Assembly (NCBI RefSeq): GCF_900231165.1
Contig: NZ_LT960614.1
Span: forward strand, 3,218,501 to 3,282,500
Source of the DNA: Hartmannibacter diazotrophicus
GTDB taxonomy: Bacteria; Pseudomonadota; Alphaproteobacteria; Rhizobiales; Pleomorphomonadaceae
Length of the DNA: 64,000 nucleotides
Direction: 5' to 3'
In this document: in pieces, positions 41,589 through 63,905 of the stretch
Position numbering within the stretch: position 1 is the first letter of the stretch
Layout: every line of letters begins with the position of its first letter
Translations under genes and position numbers: made by a program
The notes under the pieces: model-generated
What the model was told of the DNA's origin: nothing
Databases searched by the model: none
What the model saw: the letters and a program-made list of their open reading frames with translations, nothing else

Positions 41589-42128
41589 TTATTTCACCTG
41601 CATCGGCAATCCGGCAACGACGAAGTAAACGCGATCGGCCAGTGCCGCCACCTTCTGGTTGAGCCGCCCGGCCTCGTCGCGAAAGGCGCGCGCCAGCGCA
41701 TTGTCCGGAACGATGCCAAGCCCCGTCTCGTTGGCGATCAGCACGACGGGCGAGGCACAATCAGCAAGCGCCGCGACCAGCCTGTCGGAATGGTCGCCGA
41801 CACTTTGGCCGGCAAGCAGGAGGTTCGTCACCCAGAGCGTCAGGCAGTCGACGAGGATCGGCACCCCGTCGCCGCTTCGGGCACGGATGGCGTCAGCCAG
41901 TGCCAGCGGTTCCTCGATGGTCACGAAACGATCGGCCCGGTCGGCCTGATGCTGCCGGATCCTGAGCGCCATTTCCTCGTCATGCGCTTCGGCTGTTGCG
42001 AGAAAGACGCCTCGGCCATGGCCGAGGCCTTCGGCCATCCCGAGGGTCAGCCGCTCCCCGAACGCCGTCTTGCCGGAGCGCGCGCCGCCAAGCACCAGAG
42101 TAACGCCCGCCCGGGCTTCCTCGGACAT
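41589..42128 (-). CDS. cobU: Adenosylcobinamide kinase / adenosylcobinamide-phosphate guanylyltransferase
   Basis: A 179-residue bifunctional enzyme of cobalamin assembly (CobU; CobP in aerobic nomenclature). The P-loop GGARSGKT (residues 14-21) is followed by the guanylyl-acceptor region FLATAEAHDEEMALRIRQHQADR with its conserved His, then TIEEPLALADA and LVDCLTLWVTNLLL. It phosphorylates adenosylcobinamide and attaches GMP. No other cob gene lies in the window, and I found no cobalamin riboswitch in front of it, so it is an isolated cob gene here. Confidence 0.95.
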   Translation of the reverse strand: MSEEARAGVTLVLGGARSGKTAFGERLTLGMAEGLGHGRGVFLATAEAHDEEMALRIRQHQADRADRFVTIEEPLALADAIRARSGDGVPILVDCLTLWVTNLLLAGQSVGDHSDRLVAALADCASPVVLIANETGLGIVPDNALARAFRDEAGRLNQKVAALADRVYFVVAGLPMQVK

Positions 42129-44404: not shown

Positions 44405-45250
44405 CTACGACCGCAGCGCATCGATGAGGGCAATACGCCGCACCGTCGTCTCCCCCATCACCTCGGTGACGGCGGCAATCACCGCCTCCATCAGCCCCAG
44501 AAGCGCCACCATGGAATCCCATCGCGAGGGAACGGGAACGCGCGCCGCAAGCACATGCCGGGCATGGCGGGCGACGGGGGAAAGCCACTGGTCGGTGACG
44601 AGGATGATGGTCACGCCCCGCTCGGCGGCGGCCTGGGCAAAAAAGGCAAGGTCTTCCTGATAGCGGCGAATGTCGAAGATCACCAGAACGTCGCGGGCCC
44701 CCATGTCGAGAAGCATGTCGCGCCAGTTCGACGTCTGTCCGCTGACATGCGTGACCCCCGGCCGGACAACGCGCAGATGGGCGGCGGTGTGGGCCGCCAG
44801 CGCGTCCGAAAACCGTCCGCCGACGGTATGGACCGGACGACGGGCATCGCCGAGCAGCTTGACCACCGCATCGAATTCGGATGTCGGAACGCGATCGAAG
44901 GTCTCGCGGATATTCTCGATGAGCGCATCGCGAAAGACGTTGAACGGGCTGCGCTCGGCCGCATCGACCGCCGACTGGTAGCCCGCCTTCATCAGGGGCG
45001 ACTGGCTCTGCTTGTCGAGTTCGTCGCGCAGCGATCGCTGGAAGTCCGGATATCCGGAAAAGCCGAGCCGCGCGACGAAGCGGAGAATCGTCGGCGCGCT
45101 GACGTTGGCCCTGCGGGCAAACTCGGCCACCGTCTCCAGTCCGGCGATCGGGTAGTTGGCCAGGAGCACATGGGCAGCCTTGCGCTCGGTCGGCGTGAAA
45201 ACCTGCAGATCGTTCCTGATCCGCTCGGCAATCGTCTCCTGATCGGCCAT
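44405..45250 (-). CDS. RpiR-family transcriptional regulator
   Basis: A 281-residue regulator: N-terminal helix-turn-helix (FTPTERKAAHVLLANYPIAGLETVAEFARRANVSAPTILRFVARLGFSGYPDFQRSLRDEL) and a C-terminal SIS (sugar-isomerase) effector domain (VHTVGGRFSDALAAHTAAHL, GVTIILVTDQWLSPVARHA). The ATG at 45250 is chosen (AAAGG upstream). It stands divergent from the glutamylation-like gene set at 45579-52028 and is its probable local regulator. RpiR proteins usually sense a sugar phosphate; in this context the ligand may be a catabolic intermediate. Confidence 0.92.
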   Translation of the reverse strand: MADQETIAERIRNDLQVFTPTERKAAHVLLANYPIAGLETVAEFARRANVSAPTILRFVARLGFSGYPDFQRSLRDELDKQSQSPLMKAGYQSAVDAAERSPFNVFRDALIENIRETFDRVPTSEFDAVVKLLGDARRPVHTVGGRFSDALAAHTAAHLRVVRPGVTHVSGQTSNWRDMLLDMGARDVLVIFDIRRYQEDLAFFAQAAAERGVTIILVTDQWLSPVARHARHVLAARVPVPSRWDSMVALLGLMEAVIAAVTEVMGETTVRRIALIDALRS

Positions 45251-45378
45251 GCAGCAACCTTTGTCGGCGTGTGTGAGAAAGCAGTCCCCAAAACGCAGCA
45301 TCTTACCACCGGCGACGGATCACAAGATGCAGCGAGGGATCGTCGGCCGGCATTGCACATCAAAGCGACATACATTGC

Positions 45379-45404
45379 CATGTGCGTAACGAACATTACA
45401 TGTG
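45379..45404. promoter_or_regulatory. Candidate operator in the RpiR divergent region
   Basis: CATGT...ACATG arms enclose GTAA-N6-TTAC (centre about 45391), an inverted repeat between the divergent rpiR and amidohydrolase genes. TTGACT at 45405-45410 right next to it could be a -35 element. It is a plausible RpiR binding site. Confidence 0.4.
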
Positions 45405-45578
45405 TTGACTGTAGACCGCGATCTGGCAATTCTGGAACAGAAGCCCTTCCCGAAGCCCGCTGGACAGAAGTCCGCCCGCTTCACCGAAATCGCCCACCGG
45501 TATCCAGTCTCCGCCTCAAAAAGGTCGGGACCGTTTCGCGCGTCGCGATGAAAAGACAAGAAGGCCAGAGGAAAGAAT

Positions 45579-46343
45579 ATGGTCGCGCAGCCATCGTCAG
45601 CCCCGTTCGCCATCGAAAATGCCGATGGCACGGCCCCGTTTCTCATCGTCTGCGACCATGCGAGCAACGCGATCCCGGCCCGTTTCGCCAATCTTGGTCT
45701 GACCGAACAAGAGCGCGCCGACCATATCGCCTGGGACCCGGGCGCACTGGCGGTGTCCCGTCACCTGTCGAAACTCGCCGACGCACCGCTTTTCCGATCG
45801 ACCGTCTCGCGCCTCATGCTCGACTGCAACCGCCCCGAAACATCGGCGACGCTGATCCCCGACGTCAGCGAAACGACGGTCATCCCCGGCAACACGAATC
45901 TGAGCCCGGAAGAGCGGGCCGAACGGATTGCCGAGTTCCATCGGCCCTATCACGATGGACTGACGCAGTTTGTCGACGAGCAGCTTGCCAGGCGCCACGG
46001 CAAACCGCCGGCGGTCGTTGCCATCCACACGTTCACGCCCGTCTACAAGGGGGAGCGCCGCGACCTTGAAATCGGCGTTCTGTTCGACAAGGACACCCGG
46101 CTCGCCCTGCCGATGCTCGACGATCTGAAGTCCCTGGCTGGCGTCGATGCCCGCGCCAACGAGCCCTACAGCCCCGCCGACGAGGTCTATTACACCCTGG
46201 ATCGCCATGCCGTGGCACGCGGTCTTGCCAATGTGATGATCGAGATCCGCAACGACACGATCCCCGGCGAGGCCGAGGCGAACATCTGGGCCAAACGGCT
46301 GAAGACCGCGATCGATCATGCGCTCGCGACCTGCCAGGCATGA
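45579..46343 (+). CDS. N-formylglutamate amidohydrolase-family protein
   Basis: A 254-residue zinc-dependent amidohydrolase-like protein of the FGase family. Recognisable are FLIVCDHASNAIPARFANLGL, HIAWDPGA, LMLDCNRPETS, IPGNTNLSPEERAERIAEFHRPYHDGL, VAIHTFTPVYKGERRDLEIGVLFDKD and VMIEIRNDTI, with His and Asp/Glu ligands. The name enzyme splits N-formylglutamate in histidine breakdown, but no hut genes are here. Its place directly before a glutamine-synthetase-like gene suggests it may split a glutamyl or acyl amide made in this pathway. AGAGGAAAG precedes the ATG. Confidence 0.88.
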   Translation: MVAQPSSAPFAIENADGTAPFLIVCDHASNAIPARFANLGLTEQERADHIAWDPGALAVSRHLSKLADAPLFRSTVSRLMLDCNRPETSATLIPDVSETTVIPGNTNLSPEERAERIAEFHRPYHDGLTQFVDEQLARRHGKPPAVVAIHTFTPVYKGERRDLEIGVLFDKDTRLALPMLDDLKSLAGVDARANEPYSPADEVYYTLDRHAVARGLANVMIEIRNDTIPGEAEANIWAKRLKTAIDHALATCQA

Positions 46344-46454
46344 GCCCGGCGCGAGATTGAAACAAGATGATGGCGCGGCCGCCCGCTTTGGATAGTCTGG
46401 CCCGCGAGAGTGGCCGGACAATCAAGGCCGCAGCAAAGAAAGACGAGGTCCCCG

Positions 46455-47822
46455 ATGCCAGGTAACCTGACCCTTGCCGGCCTGAAAGACAAAGCGGAGC
46501 GCGGCGAGATCGACACCGTGATCGTCGCCATGGTCGACATGCAGGGCCGCCTGATCGGCAAGCGCTTCCACGTGCAGAATTTCCTCGACACCGCGCACGC
46601 GGAAACGCACTGCTGCAACTACCTCCTGACCGTCGACATCGACATGGAGCCGGTGCCCGGCTACAAGGCGGCGAGCTGGTCCAAGGGCTACGGCGACTTC
46701 ACCATCGTGCCCGACATGGAGACGCTGCGCGTCATTCCCTGGCTGCCGGCAACGGCGCTGGTGCTCTGCGACGTCACCGACCACCACCATCATCCGCAGC
46801 CGCACAGTCCGCGCCAGATCCTGAAGCGTCAGGTCGACCGCCTTGCTGAAAAGGGCATGAAGCCCTTCATGGCCTCGGAGCTGGAATTCTACCTCTTCGA
46901 CGAGACCTACGAGAGCGCGGCCGAGATGGGCTTCGTCAACCTCAAGACGACGAACGGCTACATCGAGGACTACGGCATCCTGGCGACCACCAAGGTCGAG
47001 GACACGATGCGCGCCATGCGTAACGGCCTGCACGGCGCCGGCATCATCGTGGAAAATTCCAAGGGCGAATGGGGCGCCGGCCAGGAAGAAATGAACGTGC
47101 GCTATGCCGAGGCCGTCGCGATGGCGGACGACCATTCGGTGATGAAGAACGGGATGAAGGAAATCGCCTTCCTGCAGGGCAAGGCCATCACCTTCATGGC
47201 GAAATACGCCCTCGACCGCGCCGGCAATTCCTGCCATGTCCACCAGAGCCTCTGGTCGATGGACGGAAAGCCGCTCTTCCTCGACGAGAGCGCCCCGAGC
47301 GGCATGTCGGCCCTGATGCGCAGCTATATGGCGGGGCTTTTGACCCACGCCCGCGAGATCACGCTCTTCCTCGCGCCCTACATCAACTCCTACAAGCGCT
47401 TCCAGCAGACCGGCACCTTTGCACCGACGAAAGCCGTCTGGAGCCACGACAACCGCACCGCCGGCTTCCGGCTCGTCGGCGACGGATCGAAGGCGATCCG
47501 GGTGGAATGCCGCATTGGCGGCGCCGACCTCAATCCCTATCTTGCCTTCGCCGCGATGCTGGCGGCGGGCCAGTCGGGTATCGAGCAGAAGCTGGAGCTG
47601 GAAGAGGCCTTCTCCGGCGATGCCTATGGCAGCAGCGGCGTGCGTGAGGTGCCCAAAACCCTGCGCGAGGCCATCGAGGCCGCCCGCAATTCGGACATGC
47701 TGAAATCCGCCTTCGGCGAGGAGGTGCTGGAGCACTACATCCACGCCGCCGAGTGGGAGCAGTACGAATACGATCGCCGCATCACCGATTGGGAACTGAA
47801 GCGCGGGTTTGAGCGCAGCTGA
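46455..47822 (+). CDS. Glutamine-synthetase-like gamma-glutamyl ligase
   Basis: A 455-residue GS-family enzyme. The N-terminal beta-grasp domain (1-110) and the C-terminal catalytic barrel are complete: FMASELEFYLFDE, GAGQEEMNVRYAEAVAMADDHSVMKNGMKEIA, GNSCHVHQSLW, APYINSYKRFQ, DNRTAGFRLVGDGSKAIRVECRIGGADLNPYLAFAAMLAAG. It lacks the ammonia-assimilation GlnA context and the adenylylation-loop tyrosine segment, so it is more like PuuA/IpuC/GlnT-type enzymes that glutamylate amines. GACGAGG precedes the ATG at 46455 (an earlier in-frame ATG at 46410 is rejected). It is the key gene of the operon. Confidence 0.9.
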   Translation: MPGNLTLAGLKDKAERGEIDTVIVAMVDMQGRLIGKRFHVQNFLDTAHAETHCCNYLLTVDIDMEPVPGYKAASWSKGYGDFTIVPDMETLRVIPWLPATALVLCDVTDHHHHPQPHSPRQILKRQVDRLAEKGMKPFMASELEFYLFDETYESAAEMGFVNLKTTNGYIEDYGILATTKVEDTMRAMRNGLHGAGIIVENSKGEWGAGQEEMNVRYAEAVAMADDHSVMKNGMKEIAFLQGKAITFMAKYALDRAGNSCHVHQSLWSMDGKPLFLDESAPSGMSALMRSYMAGLLTHAREITLFLAPYINSYKRFQQTGTFAPTKAVWSHDNRTAGFRLVGDGSKAIRVECRIGGADLNPYLAFAAMLAAGQSGIEQKLELEEAFSGDAYGSSGVREVPKTLREAIEAARNSDMLKSAFGEEVLEHYIHAAEWEQYEYDRRITDWELKRGFERS

Positions 47823-47889
47823 TCCTCTTGTCTTTCGCGCCGTTCGGTGGATTGCTCACCACCCCACGGTCTATTCGGAGTCCTGATCC

Positions 47890-48522
47890 ATGTCGCTGGA
47901 GCACTGGCTGGCCTTTGCCCTTGCCTCCACCATCATGCTGATGATCCCCGGGCCGACGATCCTGCTCGTCGTCTCCTATGCGCTGTCCCATGGCCGCAAG
48001 GTCGCCGGCGCGACGGTGGCGGGCGTCGCGCTCGGTGACTTCACGGCCATGACCGCCTCGATGCTGGGCCTCGGCGCCCTGCTGGCGACGTCGGCGATGC
48101 TCTTCACCGTCCTGAAATGGATCGGCAGCGCCTATCTCGTCTATCTCGGCGTCAAGCTCTGGCGCGCGCCGGTAAGCCCGATTGCGAGCGACGAACCGGA
48201 CGTGCCCTCCATGCCGGCGGGGCGGATCTTCGCCCATGCCTTCGCGGTCACCGCCCTCAACCCGAAGAGCATCGTCTTCTTCGTCGCCTTCCTGCCGCAG
48301 TTCTTCGAGCTCGGCCGCCCGCTGCTGCCGCAGATGGTGATCCTGGAGGCGACCTTCCTCGTGCTCGCGAGCCTCAACGCGGCGGCCTTTGCCTATGCCG
48401 CATCGGCCGCGCGCGAGACCATCCGCAAACCCTCGGTCCAGCGCCTCGTCAACCGCACGGGCGGCTCGCTGCTGATCGGGGCCGGTCTTTTCGCCGCCAC
48501 CTTCCGGCAGGCCAATTCCTGA
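47890..48522 (+). CDS. LysE-family exporter
   Basis: A 210-residue, six-helix LysE/RhtB-type translocator (WLAFALASTIMLMIPGPTILLVVSYALSHGRK, FAHAFAVTALNPKSIVFFVAFLPQF, VNRTGGSLLIGAGLF). It exports amino acids or related small compounds. GGAG precedes the ATG by 9 bases. It sits between the GS-like ligase and the aldehyde dehydrogenase, so it may export an excess or toxic intermediate of that pathway. Confidence 0.92.
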   Translation: MSLEHWLAFALASTIMLMIPGPTILLVVSYALSHGRKVAGATVAGVALGDFTAMTASMLGLGALLATSAMLFTVLKWIGSAYLVYLGVKLWRAPVSPIASDEPDVPSMPAGRIFAHAFAVTALNPKSIVFFVAFLPQFFELGRPLLPQMVILEATFLVLASLNAAAFAYAASAARETIRKPSVQRLVNRTGGSLLIGAGLFAATFRQANS

Positions 48523-48545
48523 ACGTCAGTAGAAACGAGACCAAG

Positions 48546-49949
48546 ATGTCCAACCTTCAAAAGATCATCTCGCCTGTCGACGGCTCCGTCTATGCCGAGC
48601 GCCCCAGCGCATCCGAAGCGGAAATCGCGGCGACCTTCTCCGCCTCGCGCGCCGCCCAGAAGGACTGGGCGGCCATGCCGCTGGAGACCCGCATCGCCTA
48701 CTGCCTGAAGGCGCTCGACGCGATGCTCGCCATGCGTCAGGAGATCGCCGAGGAACTGACCTGGCAGATGGGCCGGCCGATCCGCTACACGCCCTTCGAG
48801 CTCAACGGTGTCGAACAACGCACCCGCCATATGGCGAAGATTGCCGCCGAGAGCCTCGCTCCCCTCGACTCCGGTCTTGAGAACGGCGACAGCGGCGCGC
48901 ACCGCTACATCACCCGCGAGCCGGTCGGCACCGTCTTCGTCGTCGCGCCGTGGAACTATCCCTATCTGACGACGGTCAACTCGGTGATGCCCGCCCTGAT
49001 GGCCGGCAACACGGTGGTCCTGAAGCATTCCGACCAGACACTGCTCGTCGCCGAGCGCTTCCAGAAGGCCTTCGACGCGGCCGGTCTGCCGAAGGGCGTC
49101 TTCCAGCATATCGTGCTGACCCACGACCAGACCGGCAAGATCATCTCGTCCGGCCTTGTCGACTGTGTCTGCTTCACCGGCTCGGTCGCCGGCGGCGAGG
49201 CCATGGAGCGCGCGGCAGTCGGAAAGTTCCTGCCGATCAACCTCGAACTCGGCGGCAAGGACCCGGCCTATGTCCGCGCCGACGCCAAGCTGCAATTCGC
49301 CATCGAGAATGTCGCCGACGGCGCCTTCTTCAATTCCGGGCAGTGCTGCTGCGGCGTGGAACGCATCTACGTGCAGGAATCGGTCTTTGACGATTTCGTC
49401 GGTGGGCTGGTGGAGTTTGCCAAGGGCTACGTCCTCGGCGATCCGACCAGGCAGGAAACGACCCTCGGCCCGCTCGCCCGGCCTCGTCAGGCGGCCTTCG
49501 TGCGCGACCAGATCATCGCCGCCGTGCGCGCCGGCGCGACCGCGCATATCGACCCGAGCCATTTCCCTGGCGACAAGCCCGGCACGCCCTACCTTGCCCC
49601 GCAGATCCTGACGGGTGTCGACCACCAGATGTCGGTCATGCGCGAGGAAAGCTTCGGCCCGGTCGTCGGCATCATGAAGGTGAAGGACGACGAGGAGGCG
49701 ATCCAGCTCATGAACGATTCGCCCTATGGCCTCACCGCCTCGATCTGGACCGAGGATCTCGATGCGGCGACAGCCATCGGCGCCAGGATCGAGACCGGCA
49801 CCGTCTACACCAACCGCTGCGACTATCTCGACCCGGCCCTTACCTGGACCGGCGTCAAGCAGACCGGCCGCGGCGCTGCACTCTCGCCGCTCGGCTTTGC
49901 CGCGCTGACCCGGCCGAAAAGCTGGTACATGCGCAAGGCGCCGGTCTGA
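48546..49949 (+). CDS. NAD(P)-dependent aldehyde dehydrogenase
   Basis: A 467-residue ALDH. The N-terminal binding region APWNYPYLTTVNSVMPALMAGNTVVLKHS, the FTGSVAGGEAM loop, the catalytic Glu in NLELGGKDPAYV and the active-site cysteine region FFNSGQCCCGVERIYV (CCC in a row) are clear, as is the late FGPVVGIM. The substrate is not known; ALDHs in amine-glutamylation pathways oxidise a gamma-glutamyl-aminoaldehyde. The ATG at 48546 is chosen; a long in-frame extension upstream belongs to an overlapping frame through lysE. Confidence 0.93.
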   Translation: MSNLQKIISPVDGSVYAERPSASEAEIAATFSASRAAQKDWAAMPLETRIAYCLKALDAMLAMRQEIAEELTWQMGRPIRYTPFELNGVEQRTRHMAKIAAESLAPLDSGLENGDSGAHRYITREPVGTVFVVAPWNYPYLTTVNSVMPALMAGNTVVLKHSDQTLLVAERFQKAFDAAGLPKGVFQHIVLTHDQTGKIISSGLVDCVCFTGSVAGGEAMERAAVGKFLPINLELGGKDPAYVRADAKLQFAIENVADGAFFNSGQCCCGVERIYVQESVFDDFVGGLVEFAKGYVLGDPTRQETTLGPLARPRQAAFVRDQIIAAVRAGATAHIDPSHFPGDKPGTPYLAPQILTGVDHQMSVMREESFGPVVGIMKVKDDEEAIQLMNDSPYGLTASIWTEDLDAATAIGARIETGTVYTNRCDYLDPALTWTGVKQTGRGAALSPLGFAALTRPKSWYMRKAPV

Positions 49950-50036
49950 CGCTGCACCTGAAACACTGAACAGACATCCCTCCCCCGTGCGGGGAAGACC
50001 TCCCTCCCTTTCGTCATCCGCGAATACGAGACGTCC

Positions 50037-51194
50037 ATGACCAACCGTGCCAACTGGAACTATCCCACGCCCGTCCGCTTCGGCGCCGGACGCATCGCCG
50101 AGCTTGCCGACGCCTGCGACGTCGCCGGCCTGTCGCGCCCGCTCGTCGTCACCGATCCGGGCCTCGTCAATCTGCCGATGACCCAGAAGGCCGTGCAGAG
50201 CCTCAAGGACGCCGGTCTCAAGGTCGAGGTCTTCTCGGACGTCAAAGGCAACCCGACCGAGACCAACGTCTACAAGGGCATGGAAGCCCTGAAGATGGGC
50301 GACCACGACGGCGTCGTCGCCTTCGGCGGCGGCTCGGCGCTCGACGTCGGCAAGACCATCGCCTTCATGGCCGGGCAGACGCGCCCGATGTGGGACTTCG
50401 AGGACATCGGCGACTGGTGGACCCGCGCCGACCCCACCGGCATCTACCCGATCGTCGCCGTGCCGACGACGGCCGGCACCGGCTCGGAAGTCGGCCGCGC
50501 CTCGGTGATCACCAACGAGGAGACGCACACCAAGAAGGTCATCTTCCACCCGAAGATGATGCCAGCCGTCGTCATCGAGGACCCGGAGCTTTGCGTCGGG
50601 CTTCCCGCCTCGATCACCGCCTGGACCGGCATGGACGCCCTTGCCCACTGCCTTGAGGCCTATTGCGCGCCCGGCTTCCATCCGATGGCTGAAGGCATCG
50701 CTGTCGAAGGCATCCGGCTCTGCAAGGAATACCTGCCCAAGGCGGTCAGCACCGGAACGGATCTGGAGGCACGCGGCGCCATGCTGGCGGCGGCCTCGAT
50801 GGGCGCCACCGCCTTCCAGAAGGGTCTCGGCGCGATCCACTCCATGAGCCACCCGGTCGGCGCGCTCTACGACACCCACCACGGCCTGACCAATGCGGTC
50901 TTCATGCCCTATGTGCTGGTGTTCAACCGCTCGGTCATCGAGGAGAAGATCGCCCGCCTCGCCGCCTGGCTTGGCCTTGAGCCGTCCTTCGACGCTTTCC
51001 TCGCCTATATCCTGAACCTGCGCGCCGAGATCGGCATTCCGCCGACCCTTGCGGGCCTTTCGGTCGATGCCTCGCGTCTCGACGAGATCGCGGCGATGGC
51101 GGTGGTCGACCCAACGGCCGGCGGCAACCCGGTCGAACTGACCGTCGACGGTGCCAAGACGATCTTCCACATGGCGCTCGCCGGAGAGCTCTGA
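50037..51194 (+). CDS. Iron-dependent alcohol dehydrogenase
   Basis: A 385-residue group III (Fe-ADH) enzyme. NAD-binding GGGSALDVGKTIAFM and the metal-site regions AVPTTAGTGSEVGRASVI, TGMDALAHCLEAY, GAIHSMSHPVGALYDTHHGLTNAVFMPYV (His ligands) are complete. It could oxidise an alcohol to the aldehyde used by the neighbouring aldehyde dehydrogenase, or reduce one. It follows the ALDH by 87 bases and is followed by the SDR gene after 45. Confidence 0.93.
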   Translation: MTNRANWNYPTPVRFGAGRIAELADACDVAGLSRPLVVTDPGLVNLPMTQKAVQSLKDAGLKVEVFSDVKGNPTETNVYKGMEALKMGDHDGVVAFGGGSALDVGKTIAFMAGQTRPMWDFEDIGDWWTRADPTGIYPIVAVPTTAGTGSEVGRASVITNEETHTKKVIFHPKMMPAVVIEDPELCVGLPASITAWTGMDALAHCLEAYCAPGFHPMAEGIAVEGIRLCKEYLPKAVSTGTDLEARGAMLAAASMGATAFQKGLGAIHSMSHPVGALYDTHHGLTNAVFMPYVLVFNRSVIEEKIARLAAWLGLEPSFDAFLAYILNLRAEIGIPPTLAGLSVDASRLDEIAAMAVVDPTAGGNPVELTVDGAKTIFHMALAGEL

Positions 51195-51239
51195 CGGTTT
51201 CCGGCCGGTCCATCCAACGAGAACGACAGGGAGGAAACC

Positions 51240-52028
51240 ATGGACCTTGGCCTGAAGGGAAAGACAGCCGTCGTCACCGGCGGCAGCGTCGGTATAGGCC
51301 TTGCCGTCGCTGAGGGCCTCGCCGCGGAGGGGGTCGACGTGATCCTCGCCGCCCGTGGCCGGGAGCGCGTCGAGGCCGAAGCCGAACGGATCGCAAGGAC
51401 GCACGGCGTTCGGGCGGAGGGCGTGGCCTGCGATGTCGCGACCCTTGCCGGAACGACGGAGCTTGCCGCGCGCGCGGAAGCCTTTGGCGGTGCCGACATC
51501 CTGGTCAACAATGCCGGTACCGGGTCCAACGAGACCGTCATGGAGGCGCCAGACGAAAAATGGCAGGCCTACTGGGACCTGCACGTCATGGCCGCCGTCC
51601 GCCTCGCGCGCGGGATCGTTCCGCAGATGCGCCGTCGCGGCGGCGGCGTCATCCTCCACAACGCATCCATCTGCGCGGTGCAGCCGCTCTGGTACGAGCC
51701 GATCTACAACGTTACCAAATCGGCGCTGATGAGCTTCTCGAAGTCTCTTTCCACAGAAGTCGTCAAGGACAACATCCGCGTCAACTGTGTGAACCCCGGC
51801 CTGGTTCTGACGCCGGACTGGATCAAGACGGCCAGGCAACTGACGGCCGAAACCGGCGGCGACTGGCAGGGATATCTCGACGAGGTGGCCCGTGAACACG
51901 CCCCGATCGGTCGCTTCGCAAGCCCCGAGGAAGCCGCCAGCTTCTTCGTTTTCCTCTGCTCCGACCGTGCGAGCTATTCGGTCGGCTCCACCTATTTCGT
52001 CGATGGCGGCATGCTGAAGACGCTTTGA
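51240..52028 (+). CDS. Short-chain dehydrogenase/reductase
   Basis: A 262-residue classical SDR. It has TGGSVGIG for the cofactor, NNAG at about residue 86, the catalytic Ser in LHNASICAVQPLW and the Tyr-x3-Lys in YEPIYNVTKSAL; the C-terminal YSVGSTYFVDGGMLK is typical. AGGGAGGAAACC precedes the ATG. It ends the catabolic gene set; its substrate is probably a hydroxyl intermediate, but the sequence does not say which. Confidence 0.92.
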   Translation: MDLGLKGKTAVVTGGSVGIGLAVAEGLAAEGVDVILAARGRERVEAEAERIARTHGVRAEGVACDVATLAGTTELAARAEAFGGADILVNNAGTGSNETVMEAPDEKWQAYWDLHVMAAVRLARGIVPQMRRRGGGVILHNASICAVQPLWYEPIYNVTKSALMSFSKSLSTEVVKDNIRVNCVNPGLVLTPDWIKTARQLTAETGGDWQGYLDEVAREHAPIGRFASPEEAASFFVFLCSDRASYSVGSTYFVDGGMLKTL

Positions 52029-52153
52029 CGGGCGCGCTCGAAGCGTCGAGGCCCTGCTCAGATGGTCTTTGTCCTGGATCGGACGCGCGTGACGGTGGAC
52101 GACGGCATCATTCGGCGATAGGTACGGGGCACTTGCGCCAGACGAGAGCCTCC

Positions 52154-52993
52154 ATGCTTCCCTTTGCCGTCCGATACTACGAAATCGCCGCCCGCCGTTC
52201 GCCGCTCTGCGTCGGCATTGACCCCGCTCCGGAAACGCTTGCCGCCTGGGACCTGCCGTTCTCGGCGGAAGGCGCCCGCAGCTTCGGCCTGAAGCTTGTC
52301 GAGGTGACCGGCGAGCGCGTCGGCGTCTTCAAGCCGCAGATTGCCTTCTTCGAACGCTTCGGCCCCGCCGGGTTCCAGGCTCTTAGCGATGTGATGCAGG
52401 CCATTGCGGACGCAGGCGCCCTCTGCCTGTCGGACGTCAAGCGCCTCGACATCGATCACACGCTGGTCGCCTATGCCGGCGCCTGGATCGGTCAGGACGC
52501 GGGCTTTCCTTCCGACGCCATCACCGTCGGCGCCTATACGGGCGCAAGGGCCCTGCGCCCCGTCGTCACCCGTGCCGCCGAGCACGGTGCCGGCATCTTC
52601 GTCCTGACCCGTTCGTCCAATCCGGAAGGACTGGAACTGCAGAACGCCAGGATCGCGGACGGACGCACCATCGCCGAGCAGATTGCCGACGAGATCACGG
52701 CATTCAACCGGGAAGTCGCCGACGAGGCCACGGGGCCGGTCGGCGCTGTCATCGGCGCGACGCTGGACGACGCCATGCCGGTCCTCGACCGCCTGCCGCA
52801 GAGCCTCATCCTCGCACCGGGCATCGGTGCGCAGGGCGCGACGATCTCCGACGTGGCCCGCCGTTTCGGTCCGCACGCGCGGCGCACCCTGCCCGCCGTC
52901 TCACGGCAGGTCGCCAAGGCCGGCCCCGGCGGCAACGCCCTGATCGACGTCGTGACGAAACTGACGGACGAGGCGGCGCGGCTGCTGGATTGA
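52154..52993 (+). CDS. pyrF: Orotidine 5'-phosphate decarboxylase (type 2)
   Basis: A 279-residue OMP decarboxylase that makes UMP. The catalytic motif D-x-K-x-x-D-I-x-x-T is present as SDVKRLDIDHT, with GVFKPQIAFFERFGPAGFQALSDVM before it and FVLTRSSNPEGLELQNARI after it. The length and the VKPQ/AFFE and SNPEG features are those of type 2 (about 270-280 residues), not the 230-residue type 1. The variant reads RLDIDHT where most type 2 enzymes have RGDIGTT. ATG at 52154 is chosen over an upstream in-frame start. It is next to uup, away from other pyr genes. Confidence 0.88.
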   Translation: MLPFAVRYYEIAARRSPLCVGIDPAPETLAAWDLPFSAEGARSFGLKLVEVTGERVGVFKPQIAFFERFGPAGFQALSDVMQAIADAGALCLSDVKRLDIDHTLVAYAGAWIGQDAGFPSDAITVGAYTGARALRPVVTRAAEHGAGIFVLTRSSNPEGLELQNARIADGRTIAEQIADEITAFNREVADEATGPVGAVIGATLDDAMPVLDRLPQSLILAPGIGAQGATISDVARRFGPHARRTLPAVSRQVAKAGPGGNALIDVVTKLTDEAARLLD

Positions 52994-60703: not shown

Positions 60704-60822
60704 AGGCCTGGCGGTGACCTACTCTCCCGCGTCTTGAGACGAAGTACCATTGGCGCAGGGGCGTTTCACGGCCGAGTTCGGGATGGGATCGGGTGTAGGC
60801 GCCCCGCTATGGCCACCAGGCC
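60704..60822 (-). rRNA. rrf: 5S ribosomal RNA
   Basis: The minus strand reads GCCTGGTGGCCATAGCGGGG at the 5' side, then the conserved CCGATCCCATCCCGAACTCGG and GAGAGTAGGTCACCGCCAGG at the 3' side. The terminal helix pairs GCCTGG with CCAGGC. The ends are approximate (length about 119). Confidence 0.95.
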
Positions 60823-60915
60823 GGCGAAGCTCAGGGATTGGTCTGATGTTGATGCGGTGTTTGTGGCACCGTCGCGTTGCTTGTCGTCCTGTTCCGTCCA
60901 GCGATGCTGGACTGG

Positions 60916-61052
60916 AGCGAAGAGCGACCGTCGCTGATGCGACGCCCTCGCGGAGGGCCTTCGGCCCGTGAGCGGAATGAACCGCCCGAGCGAAGAGCGA
61001 GGCGATCGCTTGTCGATCGCGCCCTCGCAGGCGCTGCGCGCCGTGAGAGGGT
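60916..61052. repeat. Two-unit structured repeat in the 23S-5S spacer
   Basis: Two units (60916-60976 and 60989-61052) begin GAGCGAAGAGCGA and share CCCTCGC and a GTGAG end. Each has a first hairpin (unit 1 CGTCGC/GCGACG; unit 2 GCGATCG/CGATCGC) and a second (GGGCC-TTC-GGCCC; GGCGC-TGC-GCGCC). Stem sequences differ but pairing is kept, so RNA structure seems preserved. Confidence 0.6.
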
Positions 61053-61065
61053 TGATGCGAGATAA

Positions 61066-61080
61066 GCATTGATAATGAGA

Positions 61081-61085
<5 letters not shown>
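61066..61085 (-). other. 3' arm of the pre-23S processing stem
   Basis: These 20 bases are the reverse complement of 63901-63920 with one mismatch. They flank the 23S rRNA and form the RNase III processing stem. Confidence 0.75.

Positions 61086-63900
<2,815 letters not shown>

Positions 63901-63905
<5 letters not shown>

Follow-up and report, generated by a model that had tools for sequence, protein, structure and literature searches.

A gene cluster of Hartmannibacter diazotrophicus probably encoding ethanolamine degradation by the gamma-glutamyl route, and its relation to the B12-dependent route

The stretch of DNA analysed here (the window) comprises 64,000 nucleotides of Hartmannibacter diazotrophicus contig NZ_LT960614.1, part of a 5.45 Mb genome (G000). 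It carries a cluster of seven genes which most probably serves to degrade ethanolamine through gamma-glutamyl intermediates, a known route. The presence and order of the genes agreed with the original prediction for this DNA: the gene for an RpiR-type regulator is oriented divergently to genes encoding an FGase-family amidohydrolase, a ligase resembling glutamine synthetase (GS), a LysE-type exporter, an aldehyde dehydrogenase, an iron-type alcohol dehydrogenase and a short-chain dehydrogenase/reductase (SDR) (Table 1). The intergenic gaps between the plus-strand genes, from the amidohydrolase to the SDR, are 111, 67, 23, 87 and 45 bases long, sizes that would be compatible with a single transcript. 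Position 45250 is likely the start codon of the regulator gene, and the ligase gene starts with ATG at 46455, the list of open reading frames using instead an upstream GTG at 46410. A consensus scan of 45200-52300 revealed no sigma-70-like promoter, and the five terminator-like sites found there against 4.2 expected correspond to a chance number.

Table 1. Position and assignment of features in the window
Feature	Position	Strand	Basis or remark
Adenosylcobinamide kinase/guanylyltransferase gene	41589-42128	-	upstream of the operon
RpiR/MurR-family regulator, predicted operon repressor	44405..45250	-	Pfam HTH_6 and SIS above cut-off
Predicted RpiR operator CGTAACGAACATTACA	45385..45400	+	one mismatch to TGTAAYN4RTTACA
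TTGACT, possible -35 hexamer	45405..45410	+	sequence; no full promoter in the consensus scan
FGase-family amidohydrolase, predicted gamma-glutamylglycine amidohydrolase	45579..46343	+	PF05013, 152.5 bits
GS-like ligase, predicted gamma-glutamylethanolamide synthetase	46455..47822	+	PF00120
LysE/RhtB-type exporter, accessory	47890..48522	+	PF01810
Aldehyde dehydrogenase, predicted gamma-glutamyl aminoacetaldehyde dehydrogenase	48546..49949	+	PF00171
Iron-type alcohol dehydrogenase, predicted gamma-glutamylethanolamide dehydrogenase	50037..51194	+	PF00465 and PF25137
SDR, sorbose-reductase-like, probably outside the core pathway	51240..52028	+	420 bits over 262 residues against 3ai1
pyrF	52154-52993		3' of the SDR gene
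5S and 23S rRNA genes	60706-63903	-

Ethanolamine is widespread as a component of membrane lipids. Its assignment as the substrate is supported by the gene set and the placement of the RpiR gene, which match the ethanolamine operon published for Phaeobacter sp. MED193: the ligase belongs to the subfamily found in this pathway and is linked to FGase-family, aldehyde dehydrogenase and iron-type alcohol dehydrogenase genes, and the RpiR gene lies beside the operon. The ligase would join ethanolamine to glutamate at the expense of ATP, and the alcohol end of the resulting gamma-glutamylethanolamide would be oxidised by the alcohol dehydrogenase and then the aldehyde dehydrogenase to gamma-glutamylglycine, which the FGase-family hydrolase would split into glutamate and glycine. 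Every enzymatic step in H. diazotrophicus is deduced here from the genes. The same match supports two earlier proposals, a gamma-glutamylation route with a GS-like ligase and an alcohol-bearing amine as its substrate, while the description of that substrate as unknown did not hold.

The ligase scored below the cut-offs of all four NCBIfam models that it matched, i.e., GlnA (253.1 bits, cut-off 429.15), type III GS (240.8 bits, cut-off 469.6), gamma-glutamylputrescine synthetase NF045547 (211.1 bits, cut-off 650) and PRK09469, the NF045547 score leaving it outside the PuuA type. The hydrolase reached 33.2 bits with the HutG model of N-formylglutamate deformylase (cut-off 278.75) and matched only PF05013, which places it outside the PuuD type and upholds the idea that an FGase-family protein stands in for PuuD. 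The closest solved structures to the ligase were 11zs (641.2 bits) and 5dm3 (541.3 bits), the latter of which we take to be the ligase protein of Chromohalobacter salexigens. The flap residue was read in 95 of 101 ligases, and in all 95 orthologues Phe replaces the flap Glu of GS, a change likewise described for GlnA4 of Streptomyces coelicolor in the available part of PMC6529630. The ligase data thus support the assignment without deciding it; the ammonium-site residues were rejected as a clear-cut criterion, since among them the exchange of the flap Glu for Phe is the sole unambiguous one.

An ordinary GS and an N-formylglutamate deformylase that are neighbours by chance would be permitted by the Pfam domain names alone, and the Asp and Tyr that the ligase has at, or close to, two further ammonium-site columns point the same way. 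The scores with the GlnA and HutG models and the uniform Phe in the flap make this alternative hardly credible, as do the recurrence of the set across many genera and the presence in the genome of another GS with typical DGSSI and GYEAP motifs (motif reading only, covering five of the six GS-like paralogues of this genome, L004 being left out). Two divergent GS-like ligases are encoded side by side at L060:11257-15135 (G000:C1:996256-1000134), neither of which reaches the cut-offs of the models for GS and gamma-glutamylputrescine synthetase. A second FGase-family gene, 42% identical to that of the operon, was noted at L077:8388-9083 (G000:C1:3975378-3976085, minus strand).

A search of 60 related genomes recovered the ligase in 27 (E at most 1e-100). 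The loci compared were 20 of the 28 places outside the window, together with the best 80 among 572 named loci that had been confirmed; these 100 loci represent 98 distinct contigs (L037 = L078, L048 = L115), and their neighbours were mapped by tblastn. The aldehyde dehydrogenase and the iron-type alcohol dehydrogenase were each detected near the ligase in 89 loci, the FGase-family gene in 78 and the RpiR gene in 76 (74 of the 98 distinct contigs), all of them counts that are too low since contig ends truncate some loci. The three enzyme genes occurred together with the ligase in 70 of the 100 loci (68 of the 98 contigs). Given this recurrence in related loci, chance does not account for the clustering of the core genes.

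Comparison of gene order in relatives thus confirmed the core and not the whole set originally described: LysE was found near the ligase in a single locus (L036) and was rejected as a core gene, and no orthologue of the window SDR stood beside the ligase in any of the 100 loci, ten of which had SDR matches, all at most 35% identical. Both genes look accessory to the pathway. The SDR, for which the best structural match noted was the NADPH-sorbose reductase 3ai1, was judged unlikely to be a pathway step, given its resemblance to sorbose reductase and the missing orthologues; it may be a neighbour with its own substrate, and LysE might act as an overflow exporter. L036, from the nearest relative (ligase 84% identical), carries both LysE and an ethanolamine-permease-like gene. 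The nearest named relative among the matches listed, which may omit the records closest to the window, was Methylobrevis albus (L078), with a ligase 81% identical. The flap loop of the window ligase has a one-residue insertion (motif NSYKRFQQTGTFAP), observed only in the window and L036 (2 of 95), the two LysE-bearing loci.

A transporter gene is usual in the relatives, mostly between the FGase-family gene and the ligase gene: an APC permease in 40 of the 100 loci, EtoX, which belongs to a TRAP system, in 33 and an ethanolamine-permease-like protein in eight. Three of these eight proteins were scored and reached 359-367 bits on TIGR00908, just below the cut-off of 381.75, and for the two of the 40 APC permeases that were scored, the matches to models of general amino acid permeases stayed far short of the cut-offs. 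The in-operon EtoX of one relative gave 543.8 bits to 4uab, the ethanolamine-bound structure of Csal_0678 (described in the accessible part of PMC12410723). Among the window open reading frames, no transporter lies between the FGase-family gene and the ligase gene, and the operon carries no ethanolamine transporter. This was not taken as excluding the ethanolamine assignment because the slot varies among relatives and is also empty in L039.

These transporters also bear on the alternative that the gamma-glutamyl route handles a diamine or alkylamine, as known from PuuA (putrescine) or IpuC (isopropylamine). Such a route has in its favour the common GS-like ligase fold and the match to the gamma-glutamylputrescine synthetase model; the score of that match lies far below the cut-off (the comparison was made without the IpuC sequence), the hydrolase is of the FGase family and not PuuD, and in 41 of the 100 loci the transporter is EtoX-like or ethanolamine-permease-like. 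A diamine or alkylamine substrate is therefore very improbable.

Elsewhere in the genome, relatives of EtoV, EtoW and EtoX (40, 69 and 66% identical) are encoded at L076:2815-10993 (G000:C1:4365814-4373992). The EtoX relative, an open 412-residue reading frame compared with the EtoX of a relative, was not counted as proof of ethanolamine uptake, given that the set adjoins genes for an FGGY kinase, a DeoR regulator and two oxidoreductases of the FAD type. In Csal_0678, Glu220 is the platform residue according to the available text of PMC12410723. Judging from the numbering, it would correspond to the Glu within ITEDY, a motif that reads FTEAY in the paralogue. Ethanolamine might enter through this distant EtoVWX-like system or by diffusion.

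A second known way to use ethanolamine is its B12-dependent deamination to acetaldehyde by EutBC. The distribution of the two systems was analysed in 397 genomes of the order that were at least 90% complete (ligase orthologues at E at most 1e-150, at most four candidates scored per genome). The ligase was present in 163 and the ethanolamine ammonia-lyase EutB in 124 of them, and both occurred together in five against 50.9 expected, the accompanying p-value calculation ignoring kinship. The five were G000 (the window genome), G003, G006, G079 and G362. Stratification by family, restricted to the 12 families in which both systems are represented, left five observed against 20.3 expected, and none of 100,000 within-family permutations gave five or fewer (lowest 11). 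The genus-level test drew on the six genera where both systems are variable; one genome with both was observed there against 7.3 expected (P about 2e-5); the permutation control takes account of family or genus only. The ligase route and EutB nearly exclude each other. Since the two routes replace each other within genera, a shared substrate is the simplest account.

In the window genome EutB gave 722.5 bits (L057 8899-11300, G000:C1:3846898 onward), with EutC read by eye downstream. Cobalamin genes were also noted around the operon. The adenosylcobinamide kinase/guanylyltransferase gene lies upstream of the operon both in the window and in all six same-family relatives with fetched loci, and a CobQ/CobB-type gene is located between the iron-type alcohol dehydrogenase gene and pyrF in L037 (3778-5235, plus strand). 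The predicted B12-free route is therefore located amid B12 genes.

The gap between the RpiR and FGase-family genes contains a predicted operator. The exact pattern TGTAAYN4RTTACA occurs in this gap in L037-L041, where a TTGACA or TTGACT hexamer follows at a distance of 4-6 bases, and the window site is the only match with at most one mismatch in 64 kb (0.02 expected, the pattern having been derived from the same gaps). The divergent RpiR would repress the operon through this sequence. The start of another site in the genome, TGTAACGATCATTTCA, lies 232 bases upstream of FADLK, a conserved motif of EutB, and about 190 upstream of the likely ATG; for six other sites, a 300-base target and 5.45 Mb, the chance of such a location is about 3 in 10,000. 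The nearest relative, G002, has an exact match 172 bases upstream of this motif, and the two eutB sites differ in sequence while both fit the pattern. The same RpiR may thus also repress eutBC in H. diazotrophicus and its nearest relative. The remaining five sites of the genome showed no amine genes in the open reading frames readable by eye, no family search having been made. An exact operator-like site was also seen in G006 before an ABC transporter operon (L228 about 6739, G006:C12:54738-54753), the binding protein of which matched SBP_bac_6 in a Pfam scan; it could be a further regulon member in that genome.

Together with the ammonium-site residues mentioned above, several observations weigh against the ethanolamine assignment or the shared control. 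The Streptomyces cluster, in the part of PMC6529630 available, includes a short-chain dehydrogenase, so a role of the SDR in the pathway is possible. No match to the ethanolamine permease model TIGR00908 was found anywhere in G000, and the distant EtoVWX-like set perhaps serves another, glycerol-like substrate. With EutBC present, the operon is not the sole possible ethanolamine route of this genome, and close ethanolamine analogues are possible substrates. The operator pattern is not universal: 73 RpiR-FGase gaps had zero mismatches in six cases, one in 14, two in 12 and at least three in 41 (the shuffle control for this comparison permuted single bases). Nor was there an excess of sites in G000 (seven with at most one mismatch against 19 for the reversed pattern). 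The upstream regions of eutB were read in 22 of 24 cases, G079 and G362 not being among the genomes covered; two of these regions, L056 and L170, contained sites with at most two mismatches. No site with at most two mismatches was detected before eutB in G003 and G006, which have both systems, or in the 18 other readable regions, and the predicted co-control is confined to two related genomes of the four examined with both systems.

Because 41 of the 73 gaps lack the pattern, our confidence is slightly reduced, with the ethanolamine assignment still most probable. The wider proposal is put forward tentatively, at somewhat less than an even chance: the ATP-spending, B12-free route and the B12-dependent EutBC route would replace each other across the order, and this lineage, among the few with both, would have placed eutBC under the RpiR of the operon, giving a two-track system with one sensor.

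An alternative is that the lineage redirected the pathway to another amino alcohol (2-aminopropanol, 3-aminopropanol or serinol) after losing the transporter, with EutBC present. The SDR would then supply an additional oxidoreductase, and LysE would export the amino acid produced. The empty transporter slot, the presence of EutBC, the added LysE and SDR genes and the flap-loop insertion confined to the window and L036 would all fit. L036, however, has LysE and the insertion yet retains an ethanolamine-permease-like gene, the operator-like site before eutB links the regulator to ethanolamine, and the SDR resembles a sorbose reductase. Redirection is accordingly considered unlikely, and ethanolamine stays the preferred substrate.

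The assignment suggests what is probably the substrate of an operon whose genes bear misleading names (glutamine synthetase, N-formylglutamate amidohydrolase) and which is present in roughly 40% of the genomes sampled from the order (163 of 397). When a cell spends ATP and when B12 on ethanolamine becomes testable in a species that has both of these non-homologous routes, each preceded by the same predicted operator. The pathway itself is already known; new, as far as we found, are the mutual exclusion of the two routes and the operator predicted to be shared, no published statement of either having been found in the open-licence literature subset.

The original prediction held that no described pathway has exactly this set, which was not borne out: the Phaeobacter operon has been published and the C. 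salexigens enzyme families have been tabulated. In Phaeobacter sp. MED193, the operon encodes RpiR, gamma-glutamylglycine amidohydrolase, EtoV, EtoW and EtoX, followed by ethanolamine gamma-glutamylase, gamma-glutamylacetaldehydeamide dehydrogenase and gamma-glutamylethanolamide dehydrogenase (PMC10132767, available part). The same part of that source reports that five proteins of the operon increase on phosphorylethanolamine (proteomics) and that purified EtoX binds ethanolamine (binding assay), and refers to C. salexigens and A. tumefaciens for earlier examples. The window shares with Phaeobacter the clustering of RpiR, FGase-type amidohydrolase, GS-like ligase, aldehyde dehydrogenase and alcohol dehydrogenase. 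It differs in that EtoVWX lies between amidohydrolase and ligase in Phaeobacter whereas the window has no transporter there, and in that LysE after the ligase and the terminal SDR occur only in the window.

In C. salexigens, the ethanolamine gamma-glutamyl pathway was reportedly proposed by Vetting et al. in 2015, a study to which PMC10132767 and PMC9397018 refer. The ethanolamine set of this species is tabulated as PF00120, PF00465, PF00171 and PF05013 in a review (PMC9397018, as far as available), and these four enzyme families are the same as in the window. C. salexigens has a TRAP transporter, whose binding protein Csal_0678 was solved with ethanolamine, and the window operon is without it. 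For S. coelicolor, the accessible part of PMC6529630 describes glutamylation of ethanolamine by GlnA4 (ligase assayed) and proposes an FGase-family hydrolase as the last step. The proposed chemistry, the end products and the flap Glu to Phe change are common to the GlnA4 pathway and the window operon (compared without the GlnA4 sequence), whereas the gene order and the regulator (EpuRI) differ and a short-chain dehydrogenase is in the S. coelicolor cluster. EutBC shares with the operon the predicted substrate, which it deaminates rather than glutamylates.

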